Source: Stutzerimonas stutzeri
Lineage (GTDB): Bacteria; Pseudomonadota; Gammaproteobacteria; Pseudomonadales; Pseudomonadaceae
Assembly (NCBI RefSeq): GCF_002890895.1
Contig: NZ_POUL01000001.1
Location: 186,001 to 250,000 of the forward strand
DNA length: 64,000 nt
Reading direction: 5' to 3'
The notes below the pieces were generated by a model. That model was not told the origin of the DNA and did no database searches. It saw only the letters and a program-made list of their open reading frames with translations. Numbering within the stretch: the first letter of the stretch is position 1; the number at the start of each line of letters is the position of its first letter. Positions 36,054-55,168 of this stretch are shown here, piece by piece. Both the position numbers and the translations under genes were made by a program.

Positions 36054-38066
36054 CTACTCAGTCGGACCTACCCTGCGCTGCTGATAAATCAAGTCAACAA
36101 TTTCACCCTCAGGCACATAGCCGCTCACCACCTCGCGCAGCAGTACCCGAACCTGCGGATAATCATCCTGCTCTACGGCCTTGAGCAGCTTGGCCAGCAC
36201 ACCGCGCAGCACATCCCAGGTGAAATACTCCTCATCGGCCCGCATGATCATCGGGTGCTCGGTCGGGCTCACGTTATCGCCGATAAGCAGTTCTTCATAC
36301 AGCTTCTCGCCTGGACGCAAACCGGTGAACTCGATCGCGATGTCCCCGTGCGCGCATTTTTCCGAACGTACACTAAGGCCGGACAGATGAATCAATTTTT
36401 CAGCCAATTCAGCGATCATCACTGGCTGCCCCATGTCCAGCACGAACACATCGCCACCCTGCCCCATGGAGCCCGCTTGAATAACAAGCTGCGCCGCCTC
36501 AGGAATGGTCATGAAGTAACGGGTGATCTTGGGGTGGGTCACCGTCACCGGCCCGCCGCCGCGAATTTGTTGATAGAACCGAGGGATCACTGACCCTGAA
36601 GAACCCAGCACATTGCCGAAGCGAACCATGGTGAACCGTGTCTTATTGACGTGATGCACCGCGCCGTCCGCATTGAACAGTACCGGCGCCGTCTCGCGGC
36701 TCAGCGCCTGTAGGATCATCTCAGCTACCCGCTTGGTACTGCCCATTACGTTGGTAGGTCGCACCGCCTTGTCAGTGGAGATCAGCACGAAGTTGGCCAC
36801 ACCCGTCTGCACGGCGGCCTGGGCCGTGTTCAAGGTGCCCAGCACGTTGTTCAAAACGCCTTCGGCGACGTTGTGCTCCACCATCGGCACATGCTTATAG
36901 GCCGCCGCGTGATAAATCGTCTCCACTTGCCAGGTGCGCATCACGTCCAGCAGGCGCTCTGGATTTCGAATTGAACCCAAAATCGGAACCAGCCTGATCG
37001 GCAGCGAAGCGCGCTCAATCGTTCGTTCCAGTTCGATATGAATGCTGTAGAGATTGAACTCACTATGCTCGAACAACAGCAACATCTTCGGCTTGTTGGA
37101 AAGAATCTGCCGGCATAGCTCCGAACCTATCGAGCCGCCCGCGCCAGTCACCATAACAACCTTGCCGAGAATGCACTTTTCGAACAACGCTTGCTGCGGC
37201 GGCACGGCATCGCGACCCAGCAGGTCGGCGATATCCACCTCCTGGATGTCCTCGACCTTCACCCGTCCACTTGCCAAATCCATGAAATTAGGGACACTGC
37301 GAACGTGAAGCGGATAGTGCTCAAGCGTCTCCAATATCTCCCGGCGCCGCGCACGGGATGCTGACGGAATGGCCAGCAAAATCTCGTCACTGCCAGTCTC
37401 GTCGATCATCTGTTGAATGTGCTTTGGCGAATACACCCTAATACCTGCGATGACTCGATTGGCCAGGTTGGGATCGTCATCAATGAACGCGACGGGCCTC
37501 ATTACCCGACCGAGGCGCAACGCCGCTGCCAACTGATTGCCAGCTGTCCCGGCACCATAGATGGCAATTCTGGTCAGCCCTGTATCACGACGATTCAAAC
37601 CCAGCGTTTGCCCGGCGGCGAACCAGTCGCCCAAGAAGTACTGGCGCATCAGGAGCCGCAACCCCCCAATCAAAACCAAACTCAGCCACCAATAGTTAAA
37701 CACCATCGAGCGGGGAATCAGCTTGGGCGCGTCGGTTCGCCAATAGATCGCCAGCGCCAGAAGCAAAGCCGATAGCGTGACGGCCTTGGCTATGGCCACT
37801 AATGCGTCATTGCCAAAATAGCGCATCACCGCGCGGTACATCCCCAAACGGATAAAAAACGGCAATGACAACAATGGCGCAATGCCAAACAACCATGCGT
37901 GCCGCCCTAGCGGCTCGACGAAATCGGGTTCACCGAGCCGGACGAAAAACGCCAGCCATAGCGATAGCCAGACCAACAGCACATCTGTGGCAACCTGAAC
38001 CAAACGCTTCTGCCGCCTAGGCAAACGCACCAAATGTGCACGCAGCTTTTCAGCCAACCTCAACAT
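36054..38066 (-). CDS. wbpM: UDP-GlcNAc C6-dehydratase of the WbpM family
   Basis: A 670-residue inner-membrane protein. Four N-terminal helices (residues ~20-130) and a CoA-binding-like domain (YGAGTAGNQLAAALR, ~170) precede the SDR catalytic domain starting GKVVMVTGAGGSIGSELCRQIL (~300). The atypical triad of this family is visible in STDKAVRPTNVMGSTKRVAEM, with Met and Lys four apart instead of Tyr-x3-Lys. WbpM converts UDP-GlcNAc to UDP-4-keto-6-deoxy-GlcNAc, precursor of QuiNAc/FucNAc in O-antigen. It closes the O-antigen locus, as in P. aeruginosa. The 357 nt upstream suggest its own promoter. Confidence 0.94.
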   Translation of the reverse strand: MLRLAEKLRAHLVRLPRRQKRLVQVATDVLLVWLSLWLAFFVRLGEPDFVEPLGRHAWLFGIAPLLSLPFFIRLGMYRAVMRYFGNDALVAIAKAVTLSALLLALAIYWRTDAPKLIPRSMVFNYWWLSLVLIGGLRLLMRQYFLGDWFAAGQTLGLNRRDTGLTRIAIYGAGTAGNQLAAALRLGRVMRPVAFIDDDPNLANRVIAGIRVYSPKHIQQMIDETGSDEILLAIPSASRARRREILETLEHYPLHVRSVPNFMDLASGRVKVEDIQEVDIADLLGRDAVPPQQALFEKCILGKVVMVTGAGGSIGSELCRQILSNKPKMLLLFEHSEFNLYSIHIELERTIERASLPIRLVPILGSIRNPERLLDVMRTWQVETIYHAAAYKHVPMVEHNVAEGVLNNVLGTLNTAQAAVQTGVANFVLISTDKAVRPTNVMGSTKRVAEMILQALSRETAPVLFNADGAVHHVNKTRFTMVRFGNVLGSSGSVIPRFYQQIRGGGPVTVTHPKITRYFMTIPEAAQLVIQAGSMGQGGDVFVLDMGQPVMIAELAEKLIHLSGLSVRSEKCAHGDIAIEFTGLRPGEKLYEELLIGDNVSPTEHPMIMRADEEYFTWDVLRGVLAKLLKAVEQDDYPQVRVLLREVVSGYVPEGEIVDLIYQQRRVGPTE

Positions 38067-38423
38067 ATTTATGCCTCAGATAGCGGCCTGAAGCCGCCCG
38101 GTACCAAGCAACGAAAACCAATAAAGATTCATTGACAGAATCCAGACAACAGACTGGCGAGTGATATCCGGCTGCAACGCTGAAAATAGAGCAATTGTCC
38201 CGACTTAGCCGAAGCTACTACCAGTTGGCGAACAGATCTTAGGTGCTAAGGGCGGCCATCTACAAAAGCTTGTCAATCTATAGAAGTCCTATGGGCGGAA
38301 AGCCCTCGCTACGATCGCAAATCGTGCGCCCTGGATTTTGAAAAATCGAGCCGAAAGCATAGTCCACGACGAATGCGCCGGAAGGGCTGCAGACTCGCCG
38401 CTAACGACTTTCGGTTTACTACC
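38067..38423. other. Intergenic region between wbpM and the sugar transferase
   Basis: 357 nt with no supported gene and visibly lower GC than flanking genes. Likely carries a wbpM promoter. Overlapping open frames on the plus strand are antisense to the sugar transferase and lack family patterns. Confidence 0.45.
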
Positions 38424-38972
38424 TTACCGAACTCGATCACCCGCGCCGTTGCCTGCCACGGTCATAAAGATGTACTTGAAATATGCCAACAGCGTAAGGC
38501 TGCGGATCATCCGCTGGTCAGTCTCAGCCAGCAACGCCGGTGTGGACATATCTATGTCGCTCACCTGCGCCAGCCCGGTGATCCCCGGGCGAACTTCGAA
38601 AACTCCACGTTTGGCACGTTCGCCGGTCAATTCAAGCTGATTGAACAACCCTGGCCGCGGCCCGACCAGGCTCATCTCGCCTTTCATCACGTTCCACAGC
38701 TGGGGCAACTCATCCAGCTTGGTCCTGCGAAGAAAATGGCCGAAACGGGTAATAGACGTGCGGCTCGCCAGATGCGTAGCAACCGAGGCGGTATCGACCC
38801 TCATGGTCCTGAACTTAACCAGCGTAAAGGGTTGCTGATAACGACCGACACGCACCTGCCGGAAAATAGGAGAGCCGGTGTCGAACAGGCCAATTATCGT
38901 CAACGCCAGCAACACCGGAAAACCCACCACCAAACCCAGCAGCGAAAGGATCAAATCAAAAGTACGAATCAA
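38424..38972 (-). CDS. Initiating sugar-1-phosphate transferase (PglC/WcaJ type)
   Basis: A 182-residue monotopic phosphoglycosyl transferase of the bacterial sugar transferase family, which starts glycan synthesis on undecaprenyl phosphate. One N-terminal hydrophobic hairpin ([23 protein letters not shown]) is followed by [34 protein letters not shown] and [11 protein letters not shown], the family's core motifs. A TTG start at 38972 is the only in-frame option: AGGTGA overlapping the previous stop codon is its ribosome-binding site, indicating coupling to the epimerase gene. It probably uses a WbpM-derived UDP-sugar. Confidence 0.9.
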
Positions 38973-38976
38973 ACGT

Positions 38977-39936
38977 TCACCTGGTTGCTAAGCTATTGGA
39001 AGACTCGAAGCAGTACTTGAGCCCTTCATCCACTGGGTAAGGAGGCGTCCAGTCCAGCATTTCGCGCGTCTTGCTGATATCCACCTGCAACGAGCCGAGC
39101 AGCCTTTGGGCCATCGCCTTTTTGCCTAGCAACGTTGCGCCGAGCTGAAGCATGCCTGCCGGCACCGGAACCAACCGTGCTGGCTTACCCATGGCCTCAG
39201 CCACGCCCTTTAGTAACTCGGTAGTGGAAAGATCTTGGCCATCGCTTACGAGAAACATCTGATTGGCCGCGGCTGGATGGTTGAGGCAGCGGGTGATCAG
39301 ATCGACAAGATTACCGATTCCCACTAGGGAGCGCTTGTTGTGGATGGCACCGAGCGGGAGCGGAAGCCCCTTCTCCACCAACTTGATCATGCTCGCAAAA
39401 TTCCCCTTCACTCCGGGGCCATAAATTAATGGCGGGCGGACGATCACCACTTCCATACCGGTTCTAGCTGCTAGCGCCAATAGACCGACTTCCGCCTCCA
39501 ACTTTGATATTCCGTAGGGATCAATGGGGCCAGGAATATCGTCGGCGCGAAACGGAGTACCCGGACGGGTCTGTTCACCCGATACCTTGATAGAGCTGAT
39601 AAACACGAAGCGCCGCACACCAGCTTGGGCGGCTTGGCGCGCTAAGCCTAGCGTCGCGAAAACGTTGACTTGGCGAAAGGCACTTAACGGGTCACGGCTA
39701 TACTCATCCATCACATGAACACGTGCGGCTGTATGGACCACAACGTCGATGTTCTGTAATGGCGAATCCCATTCAGAGGCGCCGTTCAGGTCTCCGACAA
39801 CACGGTATTCGACCGCCTGGACCGGTGCAGATACCGCACGTCTCGTCGTAGCGACCACTTCGTGTCCTTGTTGCTTCAGCACCGGTACCAATGCCGAACC
39901 CAAAAAGCCTGACGCACCGGTCACCAGTACGCGCAT
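38977..39936 (-). CDS. Extended SDR epimerase/reductase (WbpV/WbjF-like)
   Basis: A 319-residue NAD(P)-dependent sugar epimerase/reductase. Rossmann motif TGASGFLGSALVP, HTAARVHVM, SSIKVSGE and the YxxxK dyad in DPYGISKLEAE. Relatives in O-antigen loci reduce the 4-keto group of the WbpM product to make UDP-QuiNAc or UDP-FucNAc. It lies directly ahead of the initiating transferase, so the pair probably makes and loads the first sugar. It has a large untranslated gap upstream (583 nt). Confidence 0.88.
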   Translation of the reverse strand: MRVLVTGASGFLGSALVPVLKQQGHEVVATTRRAVSAPVQAVEYRVVGDLNGASEWDSPLQNIDVVVHTAARVHVMDEYSRDPLSAFRQVNVFATLGLARQAAQAGVRRFVFISSIKVSGEQTRPGTPFRADDIPGPIDPYGISKLEAEVGLLALAARTGMEVVIVRPPLIYGPGVKGNFASMIKLVEKGLPLPLGAIHNKRSLVGIGNLVDLITRCLNHPAAANQMFLVSDGQDLSTTELLKGVAEAMGKPARLVPVPAGMLQLGATLLGKKAMAQRLLGSLQVDISKTREMLDWTPPYPVDEGLKYCFESSNSLATR

Positions 39937-40519: not shown

Positions 40520-41944
40520 TTAGATTGTCGTTCTGGCAATCGCAAGCAAACGCCGAGTGACCCAGAGCCCACCCGCAGAACACAGAATGCTCAAAACCGC
40601 CAGCAGCACCATTTTGCTGTAAGCGTCCATAGCTGAGCAGGCAAAGATCAGGCACGAAGCCATGATGCTTGCCGCCAGTGCCCACCAATGCTGGCTTGTC
40701 GGAAGTCGCAGTTTCTCCAACATAGAGGCCAGGCCTATTGAGTCGACGAGGATCCGAAGCGTCCAGGCCCAGGCGGCCCCTTCAATACCGAAGCTCTGGA
40801 TGCTGACATACAGCAGCGGCAAAAACAAAACGAGTTCCACGAGATGCATCTTTGCCATCCAGGCTGCATGACCACGCCCCAAAAGGTACGTCTGGAAAAT
40901 TTGGGCTAGGCAGTTGAACATCACCCCGATCGCCAGAATTCTTAGCGTCGGTGCTGCCCCACGGCTGAACTCGGGTGAAACCCACCAACCTAGAAGTTCT
41001 GGTGCAAACAGAATGATCAGAGCAACAACCGGAGTGACAGACGCTAGTACGATGGCACTACCTAAGATTAACAGTTGGTTACTTATGCCAACAAACTTGG
41101 TACATCGAGCCATGTACGGAAACAGCACACTGCTCAAGGCTGAAGGGAGAATGAATAGCTTGGTGACGAACTCATAAGGAGTGGTATAAAGTGCGAGAGA
41201 GGACGCAAAGGAACTCGACGCTAGAAAAAATCTGTCCATGTACAACATCAAGGCACTTGCCAGGTTTGACACCGTTATCCAGCCACCAAAGGTCAGCATA
41301 TTGCGCAACTCTACCCTGCGTCTTGATTGGCTCACGTTTCCTTTTGGAAGATAAGTTCGGCAGCTCCATGCCATGACTAGCATTCCAACGAATCGCGCAC
41401 AAAGCATGATTGCTATAATGTAGTCAATTCTAGGCGCCGACCCTAGAACAAAAACTGGTGCGATAAAGGTGACGAGCCCAAAGCCGAGACGCACCGTAGA
41501 TACCACCGAAAATCGATGAAGCCCTTCCAGTATCCCGCGAAGACCGCCACTAATGATCACGAGCGGAATGCTCGCGGCCAGTAGCAGCACGCTTAGGTCG
41601 AACTCGTCTTTACCTAGACCAAAGCGCTGGTAATCGAACTGGCGTGTCACTACTAGAGTGAGTAGCCCCATGACTACGCCGAAAAGCGCCATCAGGCACA
41701 AGCCTGAACGAACCACGGAGCGGAGCCTCGGCATTCGTCCCTGCAAGGCTGCAACACGTTTGGTGAGCGCTCTAGAAATTCCAAGATCGAAGAGGCTGGC
41801 ATAGCCAATGACTGCCCATATCAGAGTCAGCACGCCAAAGCGTTGAAGACCCAAATCATTGATAATATATGGAACGGTTAGCAAGCCTACTAAAAGAGGG
41901 ATTGCCAGCGAGGCGAGGCTTAGAAAGCTGTTGCGAAAGATCAT
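40520..41944 (-). CDS. Wzx-like polysaccharide flippase
   Basis: A 474-residue protein with about 12-14 predicted membrane helices, of the MATE/PST type (MIFRNSFLSLASLAIPLLVGLLTVPYIINDLGLQRFGVLTLIWAVIGYASLFDLGISRALTK is the typical flippase start, with LGIxRAL). It should flip undecaprenyl-linked O-units to the periplasm. The ATG at 41944 overlaps the TGA of the preceding gene (ATGA), so the two are coupled. No ABC-type exporter is in the window, in line with a Wzx/Wzy route. Confidence 0.85.
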   Translation of the reverse strand: MIFRNSFLSLASLAIPLLVGLLTVPYIINDLGLQRFGVLTLIWAVIGYASLFDLGISRALTKRVAALQGRMPRLRSVVRSGLCLMALFGVVMGLLTLVVTRQFDYQRFGLGKDEFDLSVLLLAASIPLVIISGGLRGILEGLHRFSVVSTVRLGFGLVTFIAPVFVLGSAPRIDYIIAIMLCARFVGMLVMAWSCRTYLPKGNVSQSRRRVELRNMLTFGGWITVSNLASALMLYMDRFFLASSSFASSLALYTTPYEFVTKLFILPSALSSVLFPYMARCTKFVGISNQLLILGSAIVLASVTPVVALIILFAPELLGWWVSPEFSRGAAPTLRILAIGVMFNCLAQIFQTYLLGRGHAAWMAKMHLVELVLFLPLLYVSIQSFGIEGAAWAWTLRILVDSIGLASMLEKLRLPTSQHWWALAASIMASCLIFACSAMDAYSKMVLLAVLSILCSAGGLWVTRRLLAIARTTI

Positions 41945-43599
41945 CGTGTGTCTTTGTTCGCTGAGGCATTGCGCGAATACCAGACAACCCAACTGATGAG
42001 ACTGAGTGCCAGTCCTAATAGAAGAAACCCTGGCGCCGGGTATGTCAGCATGTCAAGGCGCTGGTACAGTCTTGGAGCATCGACCAGGCAGACCGGGTCG
42101 CTGAATGAATAGGTTCGACTGTCGGCGGTTTTGAATGAACAACCGGTGAACAAGGTCAGTTGCAGCCACCCTATGCCAAGCCCGAAACACACCATATAAA
42201 TGAGCCAAATTCGCCAGATAGCCCGAGAGAACGAAATGCGCGCTTGGATGAAGTGCCAGCCGCCAGCCAACAAAAGACTCATTGGCGCTATCAGTGTGTG
42301 CAGATACCAGCCTGGGGCGCCCGCCCCGACCCCAGTCACCGCGATACGCACTAACAGATAGTAGATAAGCCCGCCGGTTACGGTGGCGACGATCAACAGA
42401 GCCAGTATGGCCAAGTCACGGCTTCTGCCCTTGAGCACGTCCACGGAACATCCGACCAGAGCGACAAACCAAAGCACCGCAGGTAGAACGAACAGGACCG
42501 GCGGGTAAGCACTTGAGGCAGTGCCGCCCCATACAAATGTCATACCGATGCCAAGCACACCCTTGATCACCTCAATAGGGTGCTGGAAGGCTCCGAACCA
42601 AAAAGAGGCACTTGGCGCTTGGCTTCCAGATAACTCAACAAGTCCGCTCAAAGAGCGACGTTGTTCAAGATTGGTCAAATAACCTTCTCCGGTAAACACG
42701 AAGTAGATCGCAATGACTAACAGAGCACCTGACCAGCTTCGTATGCGTTGTTTCCAGCCAGGCGCCAGAGCTCCCATCCACAACAGCCATCCGAAAATCG
42801 CAGCCGATATTGGTAGGAATGTCACTTTGGTCAGTCCGCCCAGCCCGAGCAGCACGCCCAGCCCGAGATACCAGTAAAGGCGTAGCGGGGTGATAAGAAA
42901 TTGGACCAACAGCGCCCACACCATAGAAAGCAATAGCAGCACCAGGGAATCATTACCCAAACGTGCAAACTCCGGAAAAAAGCCTGGAAATAAAAGAGGC
43001 CATGCCAGCGCAATCCTGGCATACACACCATTAAGTTCCGGGCGTATGACGTTGATGGCTCTGGCCGTGGACCATAGCGAAATCACCAAGCCGGTAAAGG
43101 CCAGCGACCAAGACATCAGGCGCAGAATGAATAACTGGGCAGCCCACGAGAGATCGGCGGTCATCGATACCAAAGGCGCGAGCAACCGGTAATAAAGTGC
43201 AGGATGCTGAGCCTGCCAGTTACTGGCCGTGCCCGGAGAAAAAAACCGTTTGTGGGCGTTTTGCCCATGCGCAAGAGCTTTTGAAGCGTCGCCCTGGGAA
43301 AACCATGAACGGTAGGTAACGCCACCATTTTCATCAAATGGTAGCGTTGTGCTGTAAGGCATTGGCGCCAAGCGTTTGTAGGATTCAACCCCCTTTGCCA
43401 ATCTGCCTTGTTGTAAAGAGGGCGCCTCTCCTGTATCAGCTAGCTGCTGGGCGTAAGAGTAGTGTGCCACCTCATCGTAACCCTCCCAAGGGGGAAGGAA
43501 ACAGATGAAGGCGACACCAAGTAGATACGTTACGATCCAGATGACCGTGGTCAAGCAAAGATTATCCCCCACGCCCCAGTATCTATTCTCAGTGGTCAA
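41941..43599 (-). CDS. DUF2142-like polytopic membrane protein (GT-C type or polymerase)
   Basis: A 552-residue protein with about 12 helices. The first periplasmic loop starts PPWEGYDEVAHYSYAQQLADTGEAP, which resembles the DUF2142/GT-C pattern (acidic DE motif just after helix 1). A second loop contains HPALYYRLLAPL. It could be a polyprenyl-phosphate-sugar-dependent glycosyltransferase or the O-antigen polymerase. The TTG start at 43599 is supported by AAGGAAG 6 nt upstream, and lies inside the end of the previous gene (11-nt overlap). Its stop overlaps the flippase start. Confidence 0.75.
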   Translation of the reverse strand: MTTENRYWGVGDNLCLTTVIWIVTYLLGVAFICFLPPWEGYDEVAHYSYAQQLADTGEAPSLQQGRLAKGVESYKRLAPMPYSTTLPFDENGGVTYRSWFSQGDASKALAHGQNAHKRFFSPGTASNWQAQHPALYYRLLAPLVSMTADLSWAAQLFILRLMSWSLAFTGLVISLWSTARAINVIRPELNGVYARIALAWPLLFPGFFPEFARLGNDSLVLLLLSMVWALLVQFLITPLRLYWYLGLGVLLGLGGLTKVTFLPISAAIFGWLLWMGALAPGWKQRIRSWSGALLVIAIYFVFTGEGYLTNLEQRRSLSGLVELSGSQAPSASFWFGAFQHPIEVIKGVLGIGMTFVWGGTASSAYPPVLFVLPAVLWFVALVGCSVDVLKGRSRDLAILALLIVATVTGGLIYYLLVRIAVTGVGAGAPGWYLHTLIAPMSLLLAGGWHFIQARISFSRAIWRIWLIYMVCFGLGIGWLQLTLFTGCSFKTADSRTYSFSDPVCLVDAPRLYQRLDMLTYPAPGFLLLGLALSLISWVVWYSRNASANKDTR

Positions 43600-46504
43600 G
43601 TATTACTTCCTTGTAAGCCTCACCATTCTTCACGATTTTGCGGTACTTGATCGACTTCACAGAAAAACCAGCCTGACCGAACAAGGATATTGTTTCGAAC
43701 TGCAGTGTCGGTGTTTTACCTGGCGACACGACAAGAGGGAAAACGACCTTGTTCTCATAGGGTGGCAAAGAAACGGGCATTGGCGTGTTTGTCCCGATCG
43801 GTTTGATAAAGTAGCGCGCCACCTTGCCGAACATGGGAACTTTCGCGAGGCGATTTTCAATCGAATATGTCACTTCAACTACGTACACCTGATCCTGATC
43901 GAACTGATTGACTGCCAGCGGCTCCAAGTCCATTGAGTGGGAGTCTTTCACTAAAGCCAGTTCACCGTCCCAAGACGTTTTGGGTGCTATCCATGGGCCG
44001 AATTTCGACTGGCAGAGCTGGTCTGGACTGTCAACCCAATTGCTGGTTTTCGAGAGATCGCTTTTTCGGCGCCAGATCAAACTGTAATCGGTCTTTCGGA
44101 CAACCTCATAGTTGGCAAGAATTTCTTCGTAAAATTTCCAGGTCGACGTCTGGATCCAGCGCTCATACGCCGTGTAAGACGGACGCAATGTATGAACAAA
44201 GGTCGGCTTGGAAATTTTAAAAGCACTCAGGTAATCAGCCCTTCTCTTTTGTCCAAGTGCATGAATGATGTAATCAACGCCCCCCTGGTTAACCGAATTC
44301 GACTCCAATTCAAAAAAGCCGGTGTAGGTAGACCAGAGAGTTGGGCGCTCATCGTAACGGCATGACTCTGGAGACCAGGTTTCAAAATACCTACCTGCGC
44401 CAGCTTTCTGGCCGTACTCTGATTTTGGCGGGAAAGGCCTGCTGTTCTTTCTATTGGAATCAGAGGTAACTTCATCTTGCTCATGTATACCTGGATACTT
44501 CGACCCTAGTTCATTGAAGTACAGCCATTCAGCCGCCAGTTTCGGTACTTTTTTGATGGCCGTGCTTTTTTTCAGCATGAACTCATCTGACGAAAACTCG
44601 ATGGCCGACTTAACTATGAATTGCTGAGGGAAACCGTGTACGTAAGGTTCCAGTGGAGGCCCATCAACACATGCGATGTTGCTGTAGATGGAGGTGACGT
44701 GGCGTTCGAAAGCTTCATTCGGAAACTGAACAACGCGGTATTTGCTGACGTTAGCCAATTGCTTGGCTTCGCCAACCATCAAGCAGCTGCTCTTATCAAC
44801 CTGCAGGCTGGCAATACCGTTCACCCAGATACCTGTCCTTTTTGAGTAGAACGGGGTCGAAGATTCCCTCCGGGCGGTCAATTTAGGATTTTCATACCGA
44901 TAGTGAAAGCTCTTATCTTTCCCCGAATACGTGGACAGCAAGTGCGAAGGCGAAACCTGCTCGACTTTCTCCGGCTTTCCGTTCACCTCAATCTTTGTTC
45001 CATCGCTGATCAAGTCGACCAGCACCGCTGGAGGGTTATGGAAGATTAGGTAGGTCTGACGTTTATGCAGAAGCGCTTCAGTCTGTCCGACCTGAGCGCC
45101 CAGTAAGGTTTTCGGAGGAATAACGGTGGACGCAATGGAGAACAGGTTTCTGTACTCTCCGCCCACAGGGATAACGCCTGAGTAGCGTTTCTCCATAGCT
45201 ACGCTACTGTAGTCCTGATTGAAACTGAAGGCGGAAGGGACAAAGCCTTTCAGGCTATACGGTGAAAATATTACAAAAAACAGCATACCGCAGAGCGACA
45301 GGATTCTAAAGCGAGAGACGTTCTCCGAAGACAGCCGACGTTCGATTAAGGTCCACGAAAACACAATAATGATCGCACAAGCGACGCGAGTGACTGCTTC
45401 CGAATAATGACTGGAAATCATGCCTAAATTGGAAATGAGCGCCACACAGCCATAGGCCAGTCCGAGCATCCAGATTCTGCATTCATTTTTTTTGATCTTG
45501 TCTTCTGATCTAAAAAATGAAAAGAGTACTAGAACAATAGCAATGAATATAAGAATGTAGTTTAAGAATGGACGACGGGTTCCCGGCACAAAAAACAGAG
45601 ACGCAAAATCCTTTGGAAAGATATTTGGGTACGCACCGAAGTACCAGAACTGGTCGGCCGGCAAGTCAGTCAAATAGAAACTGATAGCCTGGCCTGGTTG
45701 GCCAAAGGTAATGACATAGATGATTGCCACATACACTGGCGGGGTGATCACGCAAAACAGCACTGTGTCACGTACACGGATATACCACTTGGGTTGCCCT
45801 GGGTGAACCAGTATCAGGGCACTCGCGGTCGCCAGAGAGAGCGCCATCCCCTGCTCCGTCGCAATAATCATTGCCACGGAGCAGAAAGCGATCAGAGGAA
45901 GAACAATTTGCGAAAAAGTCCGATCGCTGGATAGTTTCTTCTTTCGGTTAATGTAAAAGAGGTAACCTAGACAAAGTGCAGGTACAAATGTTCTGACAGC
46001 AAGAGAAGAATAGGCGTCGCCGAAAGGGTCGGTGAGCCAGAATATACCTGCCAGCTTTGTGGCGATAATAAAAAAGGCAGAAAGCCCCAGCGCCACAACG
46101 GGGCGTCTCAAGCCACCAAAAATGGCCAGTACAGCAGCGAAAGCGCATAGACCGTTAATGAGATAGCGTGAAATTTCAGAAGCAAATAGCGTCTTTCCAA
46201 ACAATGCATATATTGGATAGTGAAAATAGGAAATCACCAGCCCGTGAAAAACCTGAAAGTCTCTTCCCGGAAGCTCGCCTGCTGCGATACGACGCAGGGG
46301 ATTGATGTGCTGGAACGCGCCATCAATAGGGATGCTTGTGAAGAAGGTCGACTTTTTCAGCGTGTAAATGACCAACAAGATCAAAAGCAAGAGAAAAATG
46401 GAAAAACATAGAGCCTTCTCTATTGTGTGTAGATTTTTTAATTGATGACTATCAGATTTCATAAAGCGTACAAATAAAGATCCTGATGAATTTGTATAAG
46501 CCAC
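43589..46504 (-). CDS. Large (971-residue) membrane protein with periplasmic domain
   Basis: The N-terminal ~430 residues hold about 10-12 helices. The loop after helix 1 reads IPIDGAFQHINPLRRIAAGELPGRDFQVFHGL, a GT-C-like arrangement with an acidic residue after helix 1. The C-terminal ~520 residues are hydrophilic and probably periplasmic. No family is firmly recognised. It is probably a glycosyltransferase or polymerase acting on lipid-linked sugar. Base composition looks markedly AT-richer than in the flanking core genes, suggesting acquisition. GTG at 46504 is the first start; ATG at 46462 is an alternative, and neither has a clear ribosome-binding site. Confidence 0.7.
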   Translation of the reverse strand: MAYTNSSGSLFVRFMKSDSHQLKNLHTIEKALCFSIFLLLLILLVIYTLKKSTFFTSIPIDGAFQHINPLRRIAAGELPGRDFQVFHGLVISYFHYPIYALFGKTLFASEISRYLINGLCAFAAVLAIFGGLRRPVVALGLSAFFIIATKLAGIFWLTDPFGDAYSSLAVRTFVPALCLGYLFYINRKKKLSSDRTFSQIVLPLIAFCSVAMIIATEQGMALSLATASALILVHPGQPKWYIRVRDTVLFCVITPPVYVAIIYVITFGQPGQAISFYLTDLPADQFWYFGAYPNIFPKDFASLFFVPGTRRPFLNYILIFIAIVLVLFSFFRSEDKIKKNECRIWMLGLAYGCVALISNLGMISSHYSEAVTRVACAIIIVFSWTLIERRLSSENVSRFRILSLCGMLFFVIFSPYSLKGFVPSAFSFNQDYSSVAMEKRYSGVIPVGGEYRNLFSIASTVIPPKTLLGAQVGQTEALLHKRQTYLIFHNPPAVLVDLISDGTKIEVNGKPEKVEQVSPSHLLSTYSGKDKSFHYRYENPKLTARRESSTPFYSKRTGIWVNGIASLQVDKSSCLMVGEAKQLANVSKYRVVQFPNEAFERHVTSIYSNIACVDGPPLEPYVHGFPQQFIVKSAIEFSSDEFMLKKSTAIKKVPKLAAEWLYFNELGSKYPGIHEQDEVTSDSNRKNSRPFPPKSEYGQKAGAGRYFETWSPESCRYDERPTLWSTYTGFFELESNSVNQGGVDYIIHALGQKRRADYLSAFKISKPTFVHTLRPSYTAYERWIQTSTWKFYEEILANYEVVRKTDYSLIWRRKSDLSKTSNWVDSPDQLCQSKFGPWIAPKTSWDGELALVKDSHSMDLEPLAVNQFDQDQVYVVEVTYSIENRLAKVPMFGKVARYFIKPIGTNTPMPVSLPPYENKVVFPLVVSPGKTPTLQFETISLFGQAGFSVKSIKYRKIVKNGEAYKEVILDH

Positions 46505-46548: not shown

Positions 46549-47367
46549 CTAATATTTTTCAGGATTATAGGAGCCAATACACGCCTTGATCAGCGTCATG
46601 AAAACTTCGATGTTTCCACGAAAAGCACTAATTTTTGTTGGGACCTCACCCCTCGGGTAGCGCCGAACAGTTGGTAGTTCGATGCATTTGAAGCCCAGGC
46701 GCGGTGCACGATAGGAAAGATAGGCCAGCAATTCATAGTTCGAAAAGACGTCACGGAAAATTGAGACCTTAGGATCGATCAACATCTTGCGGCTGTAGGC
46801 ACGGAATCCTTGGGTGGTATCGGTCCAAGCGAAGCCGGAAGCTATGCTCAGAATCGGAGCATGGATGTAACGGATAGCGAAATCCCTGGATTTCGGCGTA
46901 TTTTCAGCCATTCCCCCAGCTACGAATCGAGAAGCCTGAACAAAGTCCGCGCCTCGCTTGAGTGCTTCGATGAACGCCAGGATCGCATCCGGGTCATCCT
47001 TGTCGTTGCCGTCGATGGTAACGACACCTTCATAGCCCTGATCGAGTACAAAGGCATATGCACATCGTAGTTGAGCGCTGAGCTTCCCCGATGCGGTCTT
47101 GAGCACCAGGCCGCGAACACCTATACGCTGCAGTTCGTCGAACTCCAGCGAACCGTCCGTACTGCCACCGTCCGCAATAATGATGTCAGCAATGTCAGAG
47201 ACATGGACCGCCGCCATTCTCGCCAGAAGATTTTTGATTCTGTTACCTTCGTTGATAACTGGAATCACCACGCACCAAGGGTGTTGCCGACCCAGCCACA
47301 TTGATGTTTCGAAGGACGGGACTTGCCAGGATTCACGCAAAGCGGGTGCAATATCAGGGGACATCAT
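46549..47367 (-). CDS. Family 2 glycosyltransferase, dolichol-phosphate-sugar synthase-like
   Basis: A 272-residue cytoplasmic GT2. CVVIPVINEGNRIKNLLARM and DGGSTDGS open the fold; TIDGNDKDDPDAI carries the acidic metal-binding motif; TDTTQGFRAYSRKML resembles the acceptor-side motif of DPM1-type enzymes. It lacks C-terminal helices. It probably transfers a sugar onto polyprenyl phosphate. It follows the SMR gene by 11 nt, using GAAGG before the ATG at 47367, which supports coupling. Confidence 0.82.
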   Translation of the reverse strand: MMSPDIAPALRESWQVPSFETSMWLGRQHPWCVVIPVINEGNRIKNLLARMAAVHVSDIADIIIADGGSTDGSLEFDELQRIGVRGLVLKTASGKLSAQLRCAYAFVLDQGYEGVVTIDGNDKDDPDAILAFIEALKRGADFVQASRFVAGGMAENTPKSRDFAIRYIHAPILSIASGFAWTDTTQGFRAYSRKMLIDPKVSIFRDVFSNYELLAYLSYRAPRLGFKCIELPTVRRYPRGEVPTKISAFRGNIEVFMTLIKACIGSYNPEKY

Positions 47368-47378
47368 TGTGTATACCT

Positions 47379-47735
47379 TCAAGCTACGCGAGCTGTAATC
47401 AGTACAACGCCAGCAATTACCAATAAGATCCCAGCCCCTGTTGTCCAGTGGAAGGGTTCACGAAAAATCAAAATCGAGGACATGGCTACAGCTGCAACCG
47501 CCCCTGCAGTCAAAACAGGGTGAGCGACATACAGGGGAAGCCGCGCCAGGGCTGCGGCGTAAAACAGGAATGCCGCGCCATATAGACCTAGCCCCAGCCA
47601 GAACGGCCAGTTGCTCAAGGCCGCCATCGGATCGCTAAGGGATGGAAACTCACGCGGAGCCATCATGGCCATCTTGATCAAAACGCTAGCCGAGGCATTG
47701 GAAAGAATACCAATAATTAAAATGAACCATTTCAT
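47379..47735 (-). CDS. SMR/EamA-type four-helix membrane protein (ArnE/GtrA-like role)
   Basis: A 118-residue protein with four helices, of the small multidrug resistance/ArnE-ArnF/EamA-half type: LIIGILSNASASVLIKMAM, then LYGAAFLFYAAALARLPLYVAHPVLTAGAV. In glycan loci, such half-size transporters flip single lipid-linked sugars (ArnE/F, for Ara4N). ATG overlaps the TGA of the isomerase gene (ATGA), so it is translationally coupled. Its place between a sugar-modifying enzyme and a DPM-like GT2 fits a flippase for a polyprenyl-phosphate-sugar. Confidence 0.8.
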   Translation of the reverse strand: MKWFILIIGILSNASASVLIKMAMMAPREFPSLSDPMAALSNWPFWLGLGLYGAAFLFYAAALARLPLYVAHPVLTAGAVAAVAMSSILIFREPFHWTTGAGILLVIAGVVLITARVA

Positions 47736-48568
47736 TGTTCTGCTCCAGCGCGTTGAAAACGGTAATGGTGCGTCGCCACTCTCAGAGCCCGTTCAATCGA
47801 GACATGGTGCAGTTCGTTTTTGGTCCCCAGCATCTCGATCGATACCACCGGGTCTACTAAAAAGCGCTTGATCGCGGTAACCATGCGCCCATGATCAGTC
47901 CCGCCATCACCCAGTGTCACCAAGTCTGGTTCGCTGGCGTGAACGTGACCGATCAATGCTACGCAATTCTTCAGCACAGTCATAGGGTCCTCGCCATTGA
48001 TCTGCAAGGCGCCCGTGTCGAATTGCATTTTGATCGCCGGGTGCGCAACCTGTCTCACGACCTCAGCGGTTTGCGCGCTGTTGGTCATGAAGTTGGCGCC
48101 GTAGCAGGTCGGGTTAGGTTCTAGGCAAATGATCACTCCATATGACTGCGCAATACCTCCCAGTTCTCTGAAAAAGGGCACCGCCATGTCCAGCGCCTGC
48201 TGGTCGTCCAGCCCGGTTCTGTCACGATTCTTAGGAGAACCAAACACCAGGCGAGTTGCGCCCAGGCCTCCACCAATGCGGCATACGGCGCTCAGGTGTT
48301 TGAGCATGGCGGCTCGGGAATCTTGCGAACCGAAAAGATTCAATCCCGAGGTGCCAAACAGCAGCGCCTGCATACCAGTGATGGCAATGCCGCGCTCTGC
48401 CCACCAGTCTTTCACGTAGGTGATTTCCTGAACCGAAGCACTGGCAGGGTCGGGGAAGTATTTGCCGGGGGCGATATCTATCGCATCGACACCGAAACGC
48501 TTCAAGAGTCGAAAGACGATCTCATCCTCTGCCGTGTCCCAGGCGATATTGGAGATAGCTAGCCTCAT
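47732..48568 (-). CDS. Sugar phosphate isomerase/epimerase family TIM-barrel protein
   Basis: A 278-residue protein of the xylose-isomerase-like TIM-barrel superfamily (AP endonuclease family 2 fold). Candidate metal ligands are the Glu in CLEPNP, Asp in MQFDTGAL, His in HVHASEPDL and Glu in VSIEMLG. The fold isomerises or epimerises sugars, often 3-keto sugars. Coupled by ATGA overlaps to the SDR upstream and SMR downstream. With the FAD oxidoreductase and SDR it may remodel a sugar before lipid loading. Confidence 0.8.
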   Translation of the reverse strand: MRLAISNIAWDTAEDEIVFRLLKRFGVDAIDIAPGKYFPDPASASVQEITYVKDWWAERGIAITGMQALLFGTSGLNLFGSQDSRAAMLKHLSAVCRIGGGLGATRLVFGSPKNRDRTGLDDQQALDMAVPFFRELGGIAQSYGVIICLEPNPTCYGANFMTNSAQTAEVVRQVAHPAIKMQFDTGALQINGEDPMTVLKNCVALIGHVHASEPDLVTLGDGGTDHGRMVTAIKRFLVDPVVSIEMLGTKNELHHVSIERALRVATHHYRFQRAGAEQ

Positions 48569-49359
48569 GCTTTGGCACCTGCGGCAGCTTTCACGGTTGG
48601 GGTGTCTGACTGCGCGTAGCTTCTGACCGCCAGAACGGTTTCACGGGCACTGTATTGATAAGCGCTCGATGCACCGAACAGCGCGGCATGCTTGGTTCGC
48701 ATGTCATAGGTTGCCGCGGTATTGGCAAGACTGTTATCAAACGCTTTGCCGAAGCCCAGCGCGGAAATATCGGCCACGCTGATGGGTTCAGCGGTCAAGT
48801 GAATCAGCTTGAGGTTGGCTTTCAGGGCTGTTTCGATGTCGAACCAAAGGTTGACCATCGGATAGAACTGGAACACCCCTCGGCTGTCGATAGCGTGCAG
48901 GTTGTTATTGTTCAGGAAGTCGAAAATCACGTTCTTGCGCAATCCTGGGCCGACCAGGCCGGGCAGGCGAACGATCAGATATTCGGAGAAATGACCTTCG
49001 ACAAACTTTTCCAGGCGGCGGCGATTGAGGCCATACGCGTGCAGGTCAGTCTCGTCGACGGGCGTGTCTTCGTCCACATCCAGCGCGGTTTTGAATACAT
49101 CCACAGTGCTGATCAGAACGAACGTCTGGCATTTGATGGTTGCCAAGTGCGCGATCAGTTCATCGATTTTCCTTTGATCGGCTTCGGGATCACGATTGGC
49201 AATCCACTTTTGCGCAGGGGCGCCGGCGCAAACAACCGTGCTAAAAGACTGGCCGTCAATGTCGCAAATATTGGTCGAGCGGTAGAGCGACTCGAACTGA
49301 GTTTGTTTTAGGAGTGTCCCCCCAACGAAGCCAGTGAATCCGATAAGCGCGTTGTTCAT
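48565..49359 (-). CDS. SDR-fold sugar reductase/epimerase-like protein
   Basis: A 264-residue Rossmann protein of the extended SDR type but shorter. IGFTGFVGG is the nucleotide-binding motif; VLISTVDVF holds the catalytic Ser/Thr strand; the expected YxxxK reads YGLNR, with Arg replacing Lys. This makes it an atypical SDR, perhaps with altered chemistry. Start at 49359 has GGAG 5 nt upstream. It follows the FAD oxidoreductase by 17 nt and overlaps the isomerase gene (ATGA). Confidence 0.75.
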   Translation of the reverse strand: MNNALIGFTGFVGGTLLKQTQFESLYRSTNICDIDGQSFSTVVCAGAPAQKWIANRDPEADQRKIDELIAHLATIKCQTFVLISTVDVFKTALDVDEDTPVDETDLHAYGLNRRRLEKFVEGHFSEYLIVRLPGLVGPGLRKNVIFDFLNNNNLHAIDSRGVFQFYPMVNLWFDIETALKANLKLIHLTAEPISVADISALGFGKAFDNSLANTAATYDMRTKHAALFGASSAYQYSARETVLAVRSYAQSDTPTVKAAAGAKA

Positions 49360-49376: not shown

Positions 49377-50516
49377 CTAGAAGGGAGCAGGAGACAGGGG
49401 TTCTGCATCGAGCGTTTCAAGCACATCGTAAATATTGTCTATTTTCCCGCCAAGCACCGAGTAACAGCCTGGCAAATTGCTATGTCGTTCCAACAGGATA
49501 GGGCGCCCGTCGTCACCTTCATTTTTCACCAGCACGGTTTTTACTTCGAACAGCGAATCGACATGCTTGGCCTCAAGTACTGCCGGCATGTATCGCCCGA
49601 CATCACGGACCATGCGATCGACCCGACTCTGGTGCTGGTACTGTTTGAGCCTTTCATACGGATCGATCCCCCGCACATCCTTCCAATTCAAATGCGGTGT
49701 GTAGCGAACATGTGACAACGTATGCAAGCCGCGAGCCGGAAACGGCATTATCGAAAAGAACGGCCCGTCCATGACAGTGACGCCCAGCTCTCTAAGGGAG
49801 TCGGGCATGTGCATCAATGCCATCTCAGTAATTTCCTGTTTGAGACCGGAGCATACGCCGGAGAAATCGCCATCGAACTGATTGAGTCCACTATATGTAC
49901 AGTTGAAGACATAACGGCACAAGATCAGTTCTTCCTTCCCGTTCTCGGACTTAGTCACGACCTGCAGTGGATGCTGTGCGCCTCGCGAGATTTTCATCAC
50001 TCGCTTGTTGAGGTGGATTTCTACATAGTGCTGTTTGAGCTCATGCTCGATGTACCCCGCCAGCCTGGTCGAATCAAAGGCGTATTCTTGGACTAAGAAG
50101 ACGTCTTCGATCAGTCGAGGCTCAAATAGCGCTCGCAAGGCAGAGGGAGCTGGCTGAGTTTGTGCACCGATTTCCCGACAGAATCGTTCAAACTGTTTGG
50201 CGGTTACCTTCGAGTTGCTACGTGCAATCGCGTAGAGCTTGGTAAAGTCCTGGCGAACAACTTGTGGCCAGTCTTGGAGGAACTTGGGTAAGTTGATCCT
50301 GCTTCGGTAGGCCGTGGTAAAGCTGCGCGGATAGTGATAACCGTTATGGACGCGAGCCTGATTGTTATAAGACGCGCGCTGCATTAAGGCCGCTTCGCGC
50401 TCGACTAGCACTATCCGTTTGAAGCCGCGTTGTTTGGCCAAATAAATGGCAATCGCCGCCCCATAGAAACCACCACCAATGACTACCGCATCCTGGCTGG
50501 ATTCAAGATCCGACAT
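49377..50516 (-). CDS. FAD-dependent oxidoreductase (DAO family)
   Basis: A 379-residue flavoprotein. The dinucleotide motif is AVVIGGGFYGAAIAIYLA, followed by IVLVERE. The C-terminal FAD-contact segment is LPGCYSVLGGKIDNIYDVLE. DAO-type enzymes oxidise amines, 2-hydroxy acids or sugar acids. In this context a role in oxidising the sugar or its precursor is likely, but the substrate is unknown. The ATG overlaps the TAA of the GtrB-like gene by one base (TAATG), so they are coupled. Confidence 0.8.
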   Translation of the reverse strand: MSDLESSQDAVVIGGGFYGAAIAIYLAKQRGFKRIVLVEREAALMQRASYNNQARVHNGYHYPRSFTTAYRSRINLPKFLQDWPQVVRQDFTKLYAIARSNSKVTAKQFERFCREIGAQTQPAPSALRALFEPRLIEDVFLVQEYAFDSTRLAGYIEHELKQHYVEIHLNKRVMKISRGAQHPLQVVTKSENGKEELILCRYVFNCTYSGLNQFDGDFSGVCSGLKQEITEMALMHMPDSLRELGVTVMDGPFFSIMPFPARGLHTLSHVRYTPHLNWKDVRGIDPYERLKQYQHQSRVDRMVRDVGRYMPAVLEAKHVDSLFEVKTVLVKNEGDDGRPILLERHSNLPGCYSVLGGKIDNIYDVLETLDAEPLSPAPF

Positions 50517-51523
50517 TAGGAGGCCCTGTGGGTGGAAACGGTTATGGGAGCGTCTGCAACATGTTCAATGTTGAGTTTTTCGCGGCGAGTCATGCGAGCA
50601 CTCGTAAACTCCTGACCAACATGATAGAGCGGTCCTTCATTGGACAGACTGGCCATGTTCAGGATGTATTCACCCAGCACGAGAAGCACGAGCGATATCA
50701 GGAAGAACATACCTGACTGTTGCAGCGAAAAACTGATCCAGCCGGGTGCAACGTCGGCTTTAAGAACACCGATGGCGACAACGTAGATGGAATAGATCAG
50801 ATTGGCGATGGCCCCAAACATCGAGAGCGTTGTGACCAGACGCATCGGTGCACGCGTGGTGGAAACGAGCAGGCGCATGCCGCGATCAATGCTTTCTCCC
50901 AGGCGCTTAGGACGTGTGGCTTTTGGTGTTGCGCTGTACGTGAGGTAAGAGCGGGCAAAACCACCGGTTGCCGGCAAGTGGCGATAGGTGATCGCCGGTT
51001 GCGGGTGCTGAAGAATGAAGTTGATCACTCTCTTACTCAGCATCCGGTACTGCGGTGCTTCCTTGGCTAGGTGGACGCCGTTGAACCAGCTATACAACCC
51101 ATGGAATAACGCATAAGCGCTTCGGTATGCCAGGCTTTGCGGTGGTTTCTGGTCGTTGTTGGCAAATACTACGTCGGAGCCTCTAACAGCTTTATCGAGC
51201 ATTTCTGGCAGGAAATTGAGGTCGTCCACCAAAGGATCAATGACCACGACAAAATCGCCTAAAGCATTTTCCAGCCCAACCCACGAAGCGGTATCGGTAT
51301 CGACTTCCTTGGTGAGCGCATAGACTTGTAAATTAGCAAAACCATCTTCGCCTGTTAGACATTTCATCACGGAGATACTGTCGTCTTCTGACGCATTGTC
51401 AACTATAATCAGCTCGTAGTCGCTCACGAGACTGGTAATTATAGCCGCCGCATCAGACAGCACATTCTCGATAATATTAGATTGGTTTCTAACAACAAAA
51501 ACTACAGATAAAAATGGCACCAT
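50516..51523 (-). CDS. GT2 glycosyltransferase with C-terminal membrane helices (GtrB-like)
   Basis: A 335-residue protein: GT2 domain (~1-215) opening LSVVFVVRNQSNIIENVL with VDNASEDDS, then two helices (LVTTLSMFGAIANLIYSIYVVAIGVL and FFLISLVLLVLGEYILNMASL) near 230-310. This is the layout of polyprenyl-phosphate glycosyltransferases such as GtrB and ArnC. The classical DxD looks degenerate (VIDPLVDD). The start at 51523 has AAGAAGGG 5 nt upstream. It heads the coupled gene series down to 46549. Confidence 0.8.
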   Translation of the reverse strand: MVPFLSVVFVVRNQSNIIENVLSDAAAIITSLVSDYELIIVDNASEDDSISVMKCLTGEDGFANLQVYALTKEVDTDTASWVGLENALGDFVVVIDPLVDDLNFLPEMLDKAVRGSDVVFANNDQKPPQSLAYRSAYALFHGLYSWFNGVHLAKEAPQYRMLSKRVINFILQHPQPAITYRHLPATGGFARSYLTYSATPKATRPKRLGESIDRGMRLLVSTTRAPMRLVTTLSMFGAIANLIYSIYVVAIGVLKADVAPGWISFSLQQSGMFFLISLVLLVLGEYILNMASLSNEGPLYHVGQEFTSARMTRREKLNIEHVADAPITVSTHRAS

Positions 51524-51636
51524 AAAGCCCTTCTTAACAGTTGAAATACGGTAGCTGCCAAGCTTAATCGCCCGCACTTAGATGCCACTAGCTCATCGTA
51601 TACAATAGGAATTGTCTAACTGCTACATTCACGAAC

Positions 51637-52894: not shown

Positions 52895-53016
52895 TTCTTC
52901 TAATCCTCTGCATAATGCAAGCTGCGTAGGCGGGTTACAGCATGACCTCGGAGGACAGAGCCGGTGGTGGCTGGAACTTTCCGTTATTTTTTGTCTGCGT
53001 CTTCCGCCACGTGACA

Positions 53017-54483: not shown

Positions 54484-54669
54484 CGGTTAGTTCCCTTAAC
54501 CTAGCGATGTGAGCGGCTTCGCAAAAGCGGCGCATTTTGCCATGCGCTTAACCTCACACCAAGTGCGGGCTAGAAAAATGTTACGGCGCTTGGGAACTTT
54601 TCGAATTTAGGCCTGCACTAGGCTCTAGTTAGCGAAACTCGCTGCCACCTGCCGGCAGCGGCGATGTGC

Positions 54670-54954
54670 TCACTCGTCTTCGTTCACTCGATCACGCAAC
54701 TCTTTCCCTGGCTTGAAATGCGGGACGAATTTGCCATCGAGCGGGACGGATTGGCCGGTTTTGGGGTTACGACCGACGCGGGGCGCGCGGTAATGGAGGG
54801 AAAAACTGCCGAAGCCGCGGATTTCGATGCGGTCACCGGTGGCCAATGCCTGAGCCATCTGCTCGAGCATGGTTTTGATTGCCAGCTCCACATCCTTGGA
54901 CGAAAGCAGCCCTTGCTGGGTGACGATACGCTCGATCAACTCCGACTTGGTCAT
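54670..54954 (-). CDS. ihfB: Integration host factor subunit beta
   Basis: A 94-residue DNA-bending protein. The sequence [23 protein letters not shown] and the DNA-intercalating arm [15 protein letters not shown] are nearly identical to P. aeruginosa IhfB. With IhfA it forms IHF. The ATG at 54954 has GAAGGG 6 nt upstream. rpsA, its usual upstream neighbour, is not present; deaD is upstream instead. As in P. aeruginosa, it borders the O-antigen locus. Confidence 0.97.
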
Positions 54955-55142: not shown

Positions 55143-55168
55143 AAAAAAAAGGTGGACCGAAGTCCACC
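55143..55168 (-). terminator. Rho-independent terminator of deaD
   Basis: On the minus strand GGTGGAC-TTCG-GTCCACC forms a 7-bp stem with a stable UUCG tetraloop, followed by eight T. It lies 54 nt after the deaD stop and isolates ihfB. Confidence 0.95.

Follow-up and report, generated by a model that had tools for sequence, protein, structure and literature searches.

Two large membrane proteins of a Stutzerimonas stutzeri O-antigen site as candidate lipid-sugar-dependent transferases of a portable cassette

A stretch of 64,000 nucleotides from Stutzerimonas stutzeri (assembly GCF_002890895.1, contig NZ_POUL01000001.1, positions 186,001 to 250,000), here called the window, contains two adjacent genes for large membrane proteins of 971 and 552 amino acids (aa), which form part of a ten-gene block located in the O-antigen site of the genus. 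Both proteins are read here as acceptor transferases that depend on polyprenyl-phosphate sugars and belong to a portable cassette which would also make, modify and flip the sugar donor, and to this mechanism, taken as a whole and resting in part on predicted structures, we assign a probability of roughly 0.7. Judging from the models, the 971-aa protein is most likely the acceptor transferase of the cassette and the 552-aa protein a second transferase of the same block, and a role as the O-unit polymerase Wzy is unlikely for either. The fold resemblance, the gene order, the conservation and the exchangeable slot for large membrane proteins, presented below, were observed computationally.

Gene order, portable core and exchangeable slot

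The block consists of the following genes, given in the order in which they are read, and the coordinates that the initial annotation, made from the letters of the window, had given for the two large membrane proteins are correct.

51637-52740, minus strand: GT2c, glycosyltransferase of the GT2 family, cytoplasmic type, TuaG/EpsE-like (below cut-off)
50516-51577, minus strand: GT2a, 353-aa GT2 protein, GtrB/ArnC-like (PgfS/ArnC below cut-off), probable polyprenyl-phosphate sugar synthase
49377-50516, minus strand: 379-aa oxidoreductase dependent on flavin adenine dinucleotide (FAD), DAO family (DAO, 68.8 bits)
48565-49359, minus strand: 264-aa short-chain dehydrogenase (SDR)/epimerase-like protein (Epimerase below cut-off)
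47732-48568, minus strand: TIM-barrel sugar epimerase/isomerase, D-tagatose 3-epimerase-like (AP_endonuc_2)
47379-47735, minus strand: 118-aa four-helix SMR-family protein (Multi_Drug_Res), probable lipid-linked sugar flippase
46549-47382, minus strand: GT2b, 277-aa GT2 protein resembling dolichol-phosphate mannose (DPM) synthase (Glycos_transf_2), probable polyprenyl-phosphate sugar synthase
43589-46504, minus strand: 971-aa protein, described by its open reading frame (ORF), family alignment, predicted model, fold comparison and gene position
41941-43599, minus strand: 552-aa protein, predicted GT-C-like glycosyltransferase with D42/E43 in the first outer loop; start codon uncertain
40520-41992, minus strand: Wzx/MATE-like flippase (Polysacc_synt, 72.5 bits), last gene of the block

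GT2a, GT2b and the FAD, SDR, isomerase and SMR genes constitute the core. The whole block, in the order GT2c-GT2a-FAD-SDR-isomerase-SMR-GT2b-971-552-Wzx, is found in the window and in two other loci: L007, where it is flanked by glyS-like and gyrB-like genes (by reading), and L038 from S. nosocomialis, where an epimerase, a GDP-mannose dehydratase and a further SDR follow it; the 971-aa homologues in these loci are 67% and 43% identical, respectively. Altogether, eight loci carry the 971-aa family, and in five of them (the window, L007, L038, L085 and G293) its gene lies directly after GT2b, the pair standing in L085 with no other core gene in about 10 kb upstream or about 4 kb downstream. In L030, and at a contig start in L028, the gene is located just ahead of the SMR gene, and a homologue of the 552-aa protein (30% identity) is found in L021 inside the core, between the FAD and SDR genes. 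Because of these placements, which provide the strongest evidence obtained here, both proteins are assigned to a lipid-sugar system.

To survey the core, GT2b was aligned with its G293 orthologue and used as the query against a collection of genomes from 84,980 species, which gave 237 relatives among 306 stretches. Since only the best-scoring 80 loci of the 237 were sampled, the resulting frequencies describe close relatives of GT2b, which is itself present in 80/80 loci by selection. Counted by phmmer, on contigs some of which are short, the isomerase is found in 77/80 loci, the SDR and the FAD genes in 75/80 each, GT2a in 73/80 and the SMR gene in 69/80; all six core genes are present in 63/80, and 53 of those 63 have them in the order of the window and on one strand. 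According to record titles, the 80 loci belong mostly to Proteobacteria, with a few from Anaerolineae, Roseilinea, Planctomycetota, Isosphaeraceae and Cyclobacteriaceae, and the core genes in these distant-title loci suggest either wide transfer or misbinned contigs.

A number of individual loci depart from this arrangement. L062, L073, L075, L080 and L083 (Anaerolineae, Planctomycetota, Roseilinea, Cyclobacteriaceae and Isosphaeraceae titles) have no SMR match, and L083 has no SDR match. In L058, a complete core is preceded, within one locus, by the SDR, isomerase, SMR and GT2b genes of another. In Pseudomonas viridiflava (L025, 4964-20680) a GT2c-GT2a-971-552-Wzx series faces, in convergent orientation, another core that is complete and includes a 542-aa membrane protein.

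The position occupied by the 971-aa gene is one in which large membrane proteins are exchanged. When slot proteins are defined as those of at least 380 aa with at least five hydrophobic segments, encoded inside the core or no more than 400 bp from it, 85 of them are found in 69/80 loci, and the 67 that are non-redundant fall into 18 blastp groups (27, 14, 4 and 4 members, four pairs and ten singletons). A large membrane gene lies directly after GT2b in 41 of the 72 loci with room for one and between the FAD and SDR genes in 18/74, the latter being a count of loci under a rule different from that which gives 29 proteins in any core gap; for control, such genes make up 27 of the 389 ORFs situated more than 3 kb away. 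A Pfam scan of 69 proteins (the 67 and the two from the window), which gives counts per family and not the matching members, returned PMT_2 for two, GtrII (PF14264) for one, MFS for two and Acyl_transf_3 for two, and many slot proteins have GT-C-like first loops when inspected by eye. A further slot position, between the isomerase and SMR genes, is occupied by a large membrane gene in L030 and L049, and at a contig start in L028.

Predicted structures of the two membrane proteins

The model of the 552-aa protein, built from a family of five sequences, is of fair quality (pLDDT 71.6, pTM 0.79), and its top Foldseek match is ArnT (E 1.1e-3, probability 1.00). In the VIA comparison it is matched by ALG12 (Z 20.0, 331 residues aligned, 3.9 Å), AglB (Z 19.3), Pmt4 (Z 19.2) and ArnT (Z 18.6), all of the best 50 rows being GT-C enzymes or GT-C-like subunits of the glycosylphosphatidylinositol (GPI) transamidase, and 58/1000 chains reach Z 8 and 68/1000 reach Z 5. 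The model thus displays the GT-C_A arrangement, that is, a multi-helix membrane fold with a first outer loop after helix 1, and D42 and E43 in this loop, like H46 and Y47, are identical in 5/5 family members. A Pfam scan extended to E 1, with a library that presumably includes the DUF2142 model, gave PMT_2 alone, which stays below its cut-off at 21.4 of 26.1 bits (E 3.2e-4), and the earlier description of the protein as DUF2142-like received no support from it. No other gene of the genome matches PMT_2, and a sequence search against the PDB gave no match for the 552-aa protein.

Translational coupling of the two genes had been proposed from an 11-nt overlap and a TTG start supported by a Shine-Dalgarno sequence, and both the overlap and the AAGGAAG ahead of the TTG are indeed present. 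Because in L025 and L038 an ATG is found just past the upstream stop, and because a second TTG candidate lies further on in the window, conservation does not extend to the overlap, and where the 552-aa gene starts is uncertain.

The features of the 971-aa protein can be summarized as follows:

about residues 22-435: predicted GT-C-like glycosyltransferase domain, D61 in the first outer loop
the C-terminal part, about 535 residues: soluble, presumably periplasmic

Its model was built from a family of seven sequences. ArnT comes first in the VIA comparison (Z 16.0, 355 aligned, 5.0 Å), and ranks 1-39 are all taken by GT-C enzymes or GT-C-like subunits, the next entry being FtsW at Z 7.7, so that a GT-C_A fold is indicated, although more weakly than for the 552-aa protein. 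The low-confidence model has 11 helices of at least 17 residues and three of 13-15 between residues 18 and 435, with about 535 residues outside the membrane part after residue 435, and a hydropathy scan gives 9-10 segments; the earlier estimate of about 12 helices and about 520 residues was about right. The C-terminal part would be located in the periplasm, and its residues 844-961 weakly resemble (Z 5.4-5.7) the beta-sandwich domains of four entries, namely carbohydrate-binding parts of xylanases (4xun, 4qaw), a beta-glucuronidase and a toxin pore, a likeness between model and structures that is suggestive at most. The position of D61 holds D in 6/7 aligned family members and also in the distant G293 member, which, together with the residues kept in the 552-aa family, agrees with the initial annotation, where an acidic motif after helix 1 had been pointed out in both proteins. 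The same annotation likened both to GT-C enzymes that use polyprenyl-phosphate sugars; the fold comparison supports the enzyme class, less strongly for the 971-aa protein, with polyprenyl-phosphate sugars as the putative donors.

Searches with the 971-aa sequence gave little. A Pfam scan to E 1 returned nothing, the PDB yielded two ribosomal-protein matches only (E 0.36 and 0.97) and a protein search of viral contigs gave no match. Among 58 relatives only its own genome was found, among 369 genomes of the class its own genome and G293, and by profile search among 390 genomes of the order its own genome alone. The carrier of the 43% homologue in L038 (G791) entered only with the later genus sample, and Pseudomonas carriers of the family were either not drawn into, or were missed by, the class and order searches. 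For both proteins, similarity to ArnT is one of fold only, as no ArnT model and no ArnT chain of the PDB was matched by sequence.

Several observations weigh against reading the two proteins as GT-C transferases of the cassette. The model of the 971-aa protein is poor (pLDDT 51.9, pTM 0.48), with the membrane part being the best of it, its Foldseek list mixes in transporters and receptors, and no Foldseek match of either protein reached E 0.001. The aligner also warns that mostly helical models with no clear match reach best Z values of about 14, so that a Z of 16 is by itself not strong, and the GT-C assignment of the 971-aa protein leans on the composition of the VIA list more than on Z. Neither protein has a Pfam match above the cut-off, the sole NCBIfam match of the 971-aa protein is a weak one to KefB (E 0.0089), the two families show no sequence kinship with each other (hhalign probability 5) and D61 is replaced by N in L085. 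With regard to gene placement, the 971/552 genes of L025 adjoin GT2a and GT2c and not GT2b, and 11/80 loci have no large membrane protein inside the limits used. Two MFS and two Acyl_transf_3 matches occur among the 69 scanned proteins, most of which have no match at all, so that the large membrane proteins, although overrepresented at the slot, are not all GT-C. In addition, the top NCBIfam model of the SMR protein is of the drug-efflux type (BcrB, 30.1 bits, below cut-off).

Proposed mechanism, the O-antigen site and alternative roles

The remaining genes of the cassette were assigned from family models and structure matches. GT2a matches the structures of sll0501 (E 4.9e-16), presumably a GtrB-type enzyme, and ArnC (E 3.8e-9) by sequence, and GT2b matches that of a dolichol-phosphate mannose synthase (5mlz, E 1.4e-6), with AglJ and dolichyl-phosphate hexose transferase models below cut-off; a second GT2b-like gene sought elsewhere in the genome gave one weak match only. 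The SMR protein narrowly exceeds the Multi_Drug_Res cut-off (23.9 against 23.7 bits), and ArnF (25.4 bits) and ArnE (21.0 bits) are below cut-off in NCBIfam. The isomerase matches a D-tagatose 3-epimerase structure (4q7i, E 1.4e-6), and E, D, H and E positions, which we take to be metal ligands, are conserved in its family alignment. No solved relative was found for the FAD oxidoreductase at E 0.001, and the SDR has only a marginal one (E 0.058). In the SDR family (window 48565-49359 and orthologues), YG..R is conserved to at least 95% among the 77 sequences of the alignment; SDRs normally carry YxxxK at this position.

As regards donor, acceptor, flipping and the order of steps, we infer the following mechanism. 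GT2b and GT2a would load sugar onto polyprenyl phosphate, and the FAD oxidoreductase, the TIM-barrel epimerase and the SDR would alter its stereochemistry through oxidation, epimerisation and reduction, either before or after loading. The 118-aa SMR protein would then flip the lipid-sugar, both this role and that of the sugar-modifying enzymes being suggested by gene families and by the company the genes keep. The flipped sugar would be transferred by the 971-aa GT-C, in which D61 is likely to serve as the base and the C-terminal part would probably hold the acceptor, and a second transfer, using a donor from GT2a/GT2c, would be carried out by the 552-aa GT-C, for which the Wzx-like protein perhaps flips the donor, this being the least certain step. 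Since the block sits in the O-antigen site of the genus, the acceptor is probably an O-unit linked to undecaprenyl pyrophosphate (Und-PP) or lipid A-core. Judging by gene families and fold, the synthase, flippase and GT-C that make up three-component periplasmic glycosylation are encoded together.

The site itself is recognized by a locus end that family scans and sister comparison show to be conserved in the genus:

36054-39936, minus strand: end of the O-antigen locus, composed of the three genes below
36054-38066, minus strand: WbpM-like dehydratase
38424-38972, minus strand: Bac_transf phosphoglycosyltransferase (PGT)
38977-39936, minus strand: SDR epimerase

All 41 genomes of the genus sample have a WbpM match (weak in one, G008), and in 2/41 the cassette FAD gene is matched at E 1e-60 or better. 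From 12 sisters the region upstream of WbpM was taken, two of these loci being truncated by contig ends and not counted. Two more loci stand outside the tally: L126, from G008, and L125, adjoining WbpM in G791, where 19.5 kb contain a WbpL-like ORF (by reading) and nothing recognisable as a glycan cluster. Among the ten tallied sisters, seven have a Wzx-like gene and a second protein of 8-10 segments, two have an ABC-2 exporter and one is unclear. The Wzx-like genes were named by reading and four of the seven Wzy candidates by position and shape, while three of the seven have a Pfam Wzy match (PF14296 in L115, PF04932 in L117 and L121). A Wzz match shorter than 500 aa is present in 7/7 Wzx/Wzy-type sisters, in neither ABC genome and in neither carrier of the block; the four Wzz matches of the S. 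stutzeri genome are all of 737-770 aa, so the short Wzz that accompanies Wzx/Wzy-type loci was not found there. Because 17/41 genus genomes (by reading of the table) also have no short Wzz, its absence is not special.

The initial annotation had noted that the locus has no conventional Wzy or Wzz, and a membrane-profile scan of the window ORFs likewise finds none: the complete ORFs of at least 200 aa with at least five hydrophobic segments are the 971-aa, 552-aa and Wzx-like proteins, with BCCT, EamA and Yip1 proteins elsewhere. A wzy located elsewhere in the genome was also looked for, yielding no PF14296 match and two Wzy_C matches, on C22 and C10, both of which were rejected as the missing gene and assigned to other loci. 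That on C22 lies beside MsbA and core-lipopolysaccharide (core-LPS) genes (by reading) and is read as WaaL, and that on C10 lies in what resembles an exopolysaccharide cluster, together with a 760-aa Wzc-type protein (by reading).

It is against this background that one of the two proteins, most likely the 552-aa one, may be considered as the Wzy that polymerizes Und-PP-linked repeats, the other half of an earlier proposal that named both as acceptor transferases of the adjacent cassette or else the polymerase. The 552-aa gene adjoins a Wzx-like gene in a locus that ends in PGT/WbpM, no other ORF of the window has a Wzy-like membrane profile, and the same pairing is seen in 7/10 full-length sister loci. 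Neither protein matches PF04932 or PF14296, whereas three sister candidates do match Wzy families, yet this miss says little, because Pfam also misses 4/7 sister candidates; the lack of Wzy and WaaL chains among the listed VIA rows of both models likewise does not speak for a difference in fold. Against this role are the resemblance of the 552-aa fold to GT-C enzymes of the ArnT/PMT/STT3 kind, the homologue placed inside the sugar-donor core in L021 and the contrast between this genome and all seven Wzx/Wzy-type sisters in short Wzz matches, and we regard the polymerase as very improbable. It is the transferase half of the proposal that is supported, by fold for both proteins and, for the 971-aa protein, also by adjacency to GT2b in 5/8 loci.

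A different kind of polymerization would be achieved if the 971-aa protein, or both, built the O-chain in the periplasm sugar by sugar from polyprenyl-phosphate donors, much as arabinan is made by Emb enzymes, in place of Wzy/Wzz. In outline, a GT-C with an extensive C-terminal part is reminiscent of Emb and AftD, GT2c is the sole cytoplasmic-type glycosyltransferase remaining besides the PGT, and the block occupies the O-antigen site even though the Wzz-type genes of the sisters and short Wzz matches in the genome are missing. Emb rows reach only Z 7.6-8.5 with the 971-aa model, however, the L007 block has neither PGT nor WbpM in the stretch examined, short Wzz is also missing from the 17 genus genomes mentioned above, and a semi-rough O-antigen with a single unit would be the simpler outcome. 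Since no short Wzz and no Wzy were found here, chain growth by GT-C stays a bold reading, and a processive enzyme of this kind is improbable, as is, to the same extent, an O-antigen made with no Wzy, Wzz or ABC exporter in which the ten-gene block replaces the polymerase plus the sugar set. Finally, the acceptor may be a protein (pilin, flagellin or other), as in O-glycosylation systems of the PMT/oligosaccharyltransferase kind, given that Pmt4, STT3/AglB and PglB are among the closest folds and that the L007 block forms an island beside a gyrB-like gene (by reading), apart from PGT/WbpM. The window block, in contrast, lies between the O-antigen flanks of the genus, the LPS-modifying ArnT has the top score with the 971-aa model and a score comparable to those of the protein glycosyltransferases with the 552-aa model, and no acceptor protein gene was noticed beside the block, where no search was aimed at one; this alternative is considered unlikely.

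Comparison with known systems and neighbouring features

Polyprenyl-phosphate-sugar-dependent transfer, as proposed here for both proteins, has parallels in several known systems. The Arn pathway (ArnC, ArnE/ArnF and ArnT), which places 4-amino-4-deoxy-L-arabinose (L-Ara4N) on lipid A/core, likewise combines a GT2 synthase acting on undecaprenyl phosphate (Und-P), an SMR-type flippase and a GT-C; the cassette has ArnC and ArnE/F among its sequence matches, and by fold the 971-aa protein matches ArnT best. In the cassette, however, the Arn sugar enzymes are replaced by the FAD/SDR/epimerase trio, there are two GT2 synthases, the 971-aa protein adds its C-terminal part of about 535 residues and the GT-C-like genes vary by locus. 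O-antigen glucosylation by gtr depends on three components, GtrA, GtrB and a serotype-specific GtrC (summarised in PMC11127046). In both systems the synthase and the SMR-type flippase are conserved and the transferase varies strongly, and one slot protein matches GtrII (PF14264), whereas genes for donor modification and a second GT2 are included in the cassette itself, and the 118-aa protein of the cassette matches Multi_Drug_Res and no GtrA model in Pfam.

The GT136 pentofuranose system of Citrobacter includes a synthase dependent on phosphoribosyl pyrophosphate (PRPP), a MATE flippase, a GT-C with a carbohydrate-binding domain and an epimerase (PMC11127046). It shares with the cassette a polyprenyl-phosphate donor, a flippase, a GT-C with an extra domain and an auxiliary epimerase, and it differs in that the cassette uses GtrB/ArnC-like and DPM-like GT2 synthases and an SMR protein; no PRPP-dependent polyprenyl phosphoribose synthase family was found among the scanned cassette proteins of the window. 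In the mycobacterial DprE1/DprE2-Rv3789-AftA/Emb system, as outlined in the same paper, an oxidoreductase pair epimerises the donor on the lipid and is accompanied by an SMR flippase and GT-C enzymes with carbohydrate-binding domains (PMC11127046). Oxidoreductases, an SMR flippase and a GT-C are found in both, the differences being that the FAD enzyme of the cassette is of the DAO family, that a separate TIM-barrel epimerase is present and that no phosphoribosyltransferase was seen among the scanned cassette proteins. DprE1 belongs to a family other than DAO.

All parts of the cassette are of known kinds; no description of their combination, a donor-editing trio with an exchangeable transferase, was found in the literature searched, which was judged by titles and the beginnings of abstracts and largely does not cover subscription papers. 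Variation of surface sugars drives phage resistance, host recognition and serotype, and if the proposed mechanism is true, a conserved donor-making core with an exchangeable and mostly unclassified transferase would represent a general route to surface-sugar change across distant bacteria, and the slot would be a source of unassigned GT-C families. In the discussion of their 2024 paper, the authors of the GT136 work state that they were unaware of other epimerases in O-chain side-chain systems (PMC11127046), and the cassette would add a donor-modifying route which, for such systems, was known to them only from the pentose system. The Stutzerimonas locus would also constitute a clean test case for an O-chain built without Wzy/Wzz.

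The G+C content is 48-55% over 38-54 kb of the window, against 55-62% elsewhere in it. Flanking the O-antigen site, an MBL/beta-CASP gene (window 52935-54483, minus strand) is split over two frames (52938-53711 and 53647-54483); in the sisters it is a single ORF of 495-585 aa in six loci, and only in L117 a 230-aa piece. Between this gene and, where the sequence reaches, the gene for a 577-aa DEAD-box helicase, L115, L116, L118, L119 and L121 contain two Wzz-like two-segment genes, which are missing from window 54483-55222, and neither of the two L118 copies has a significant tblastn match in the window. A single tRNA gene, for tRNA-Ser (GGA), was found in the window, at 29787-29876 on the plus strand.

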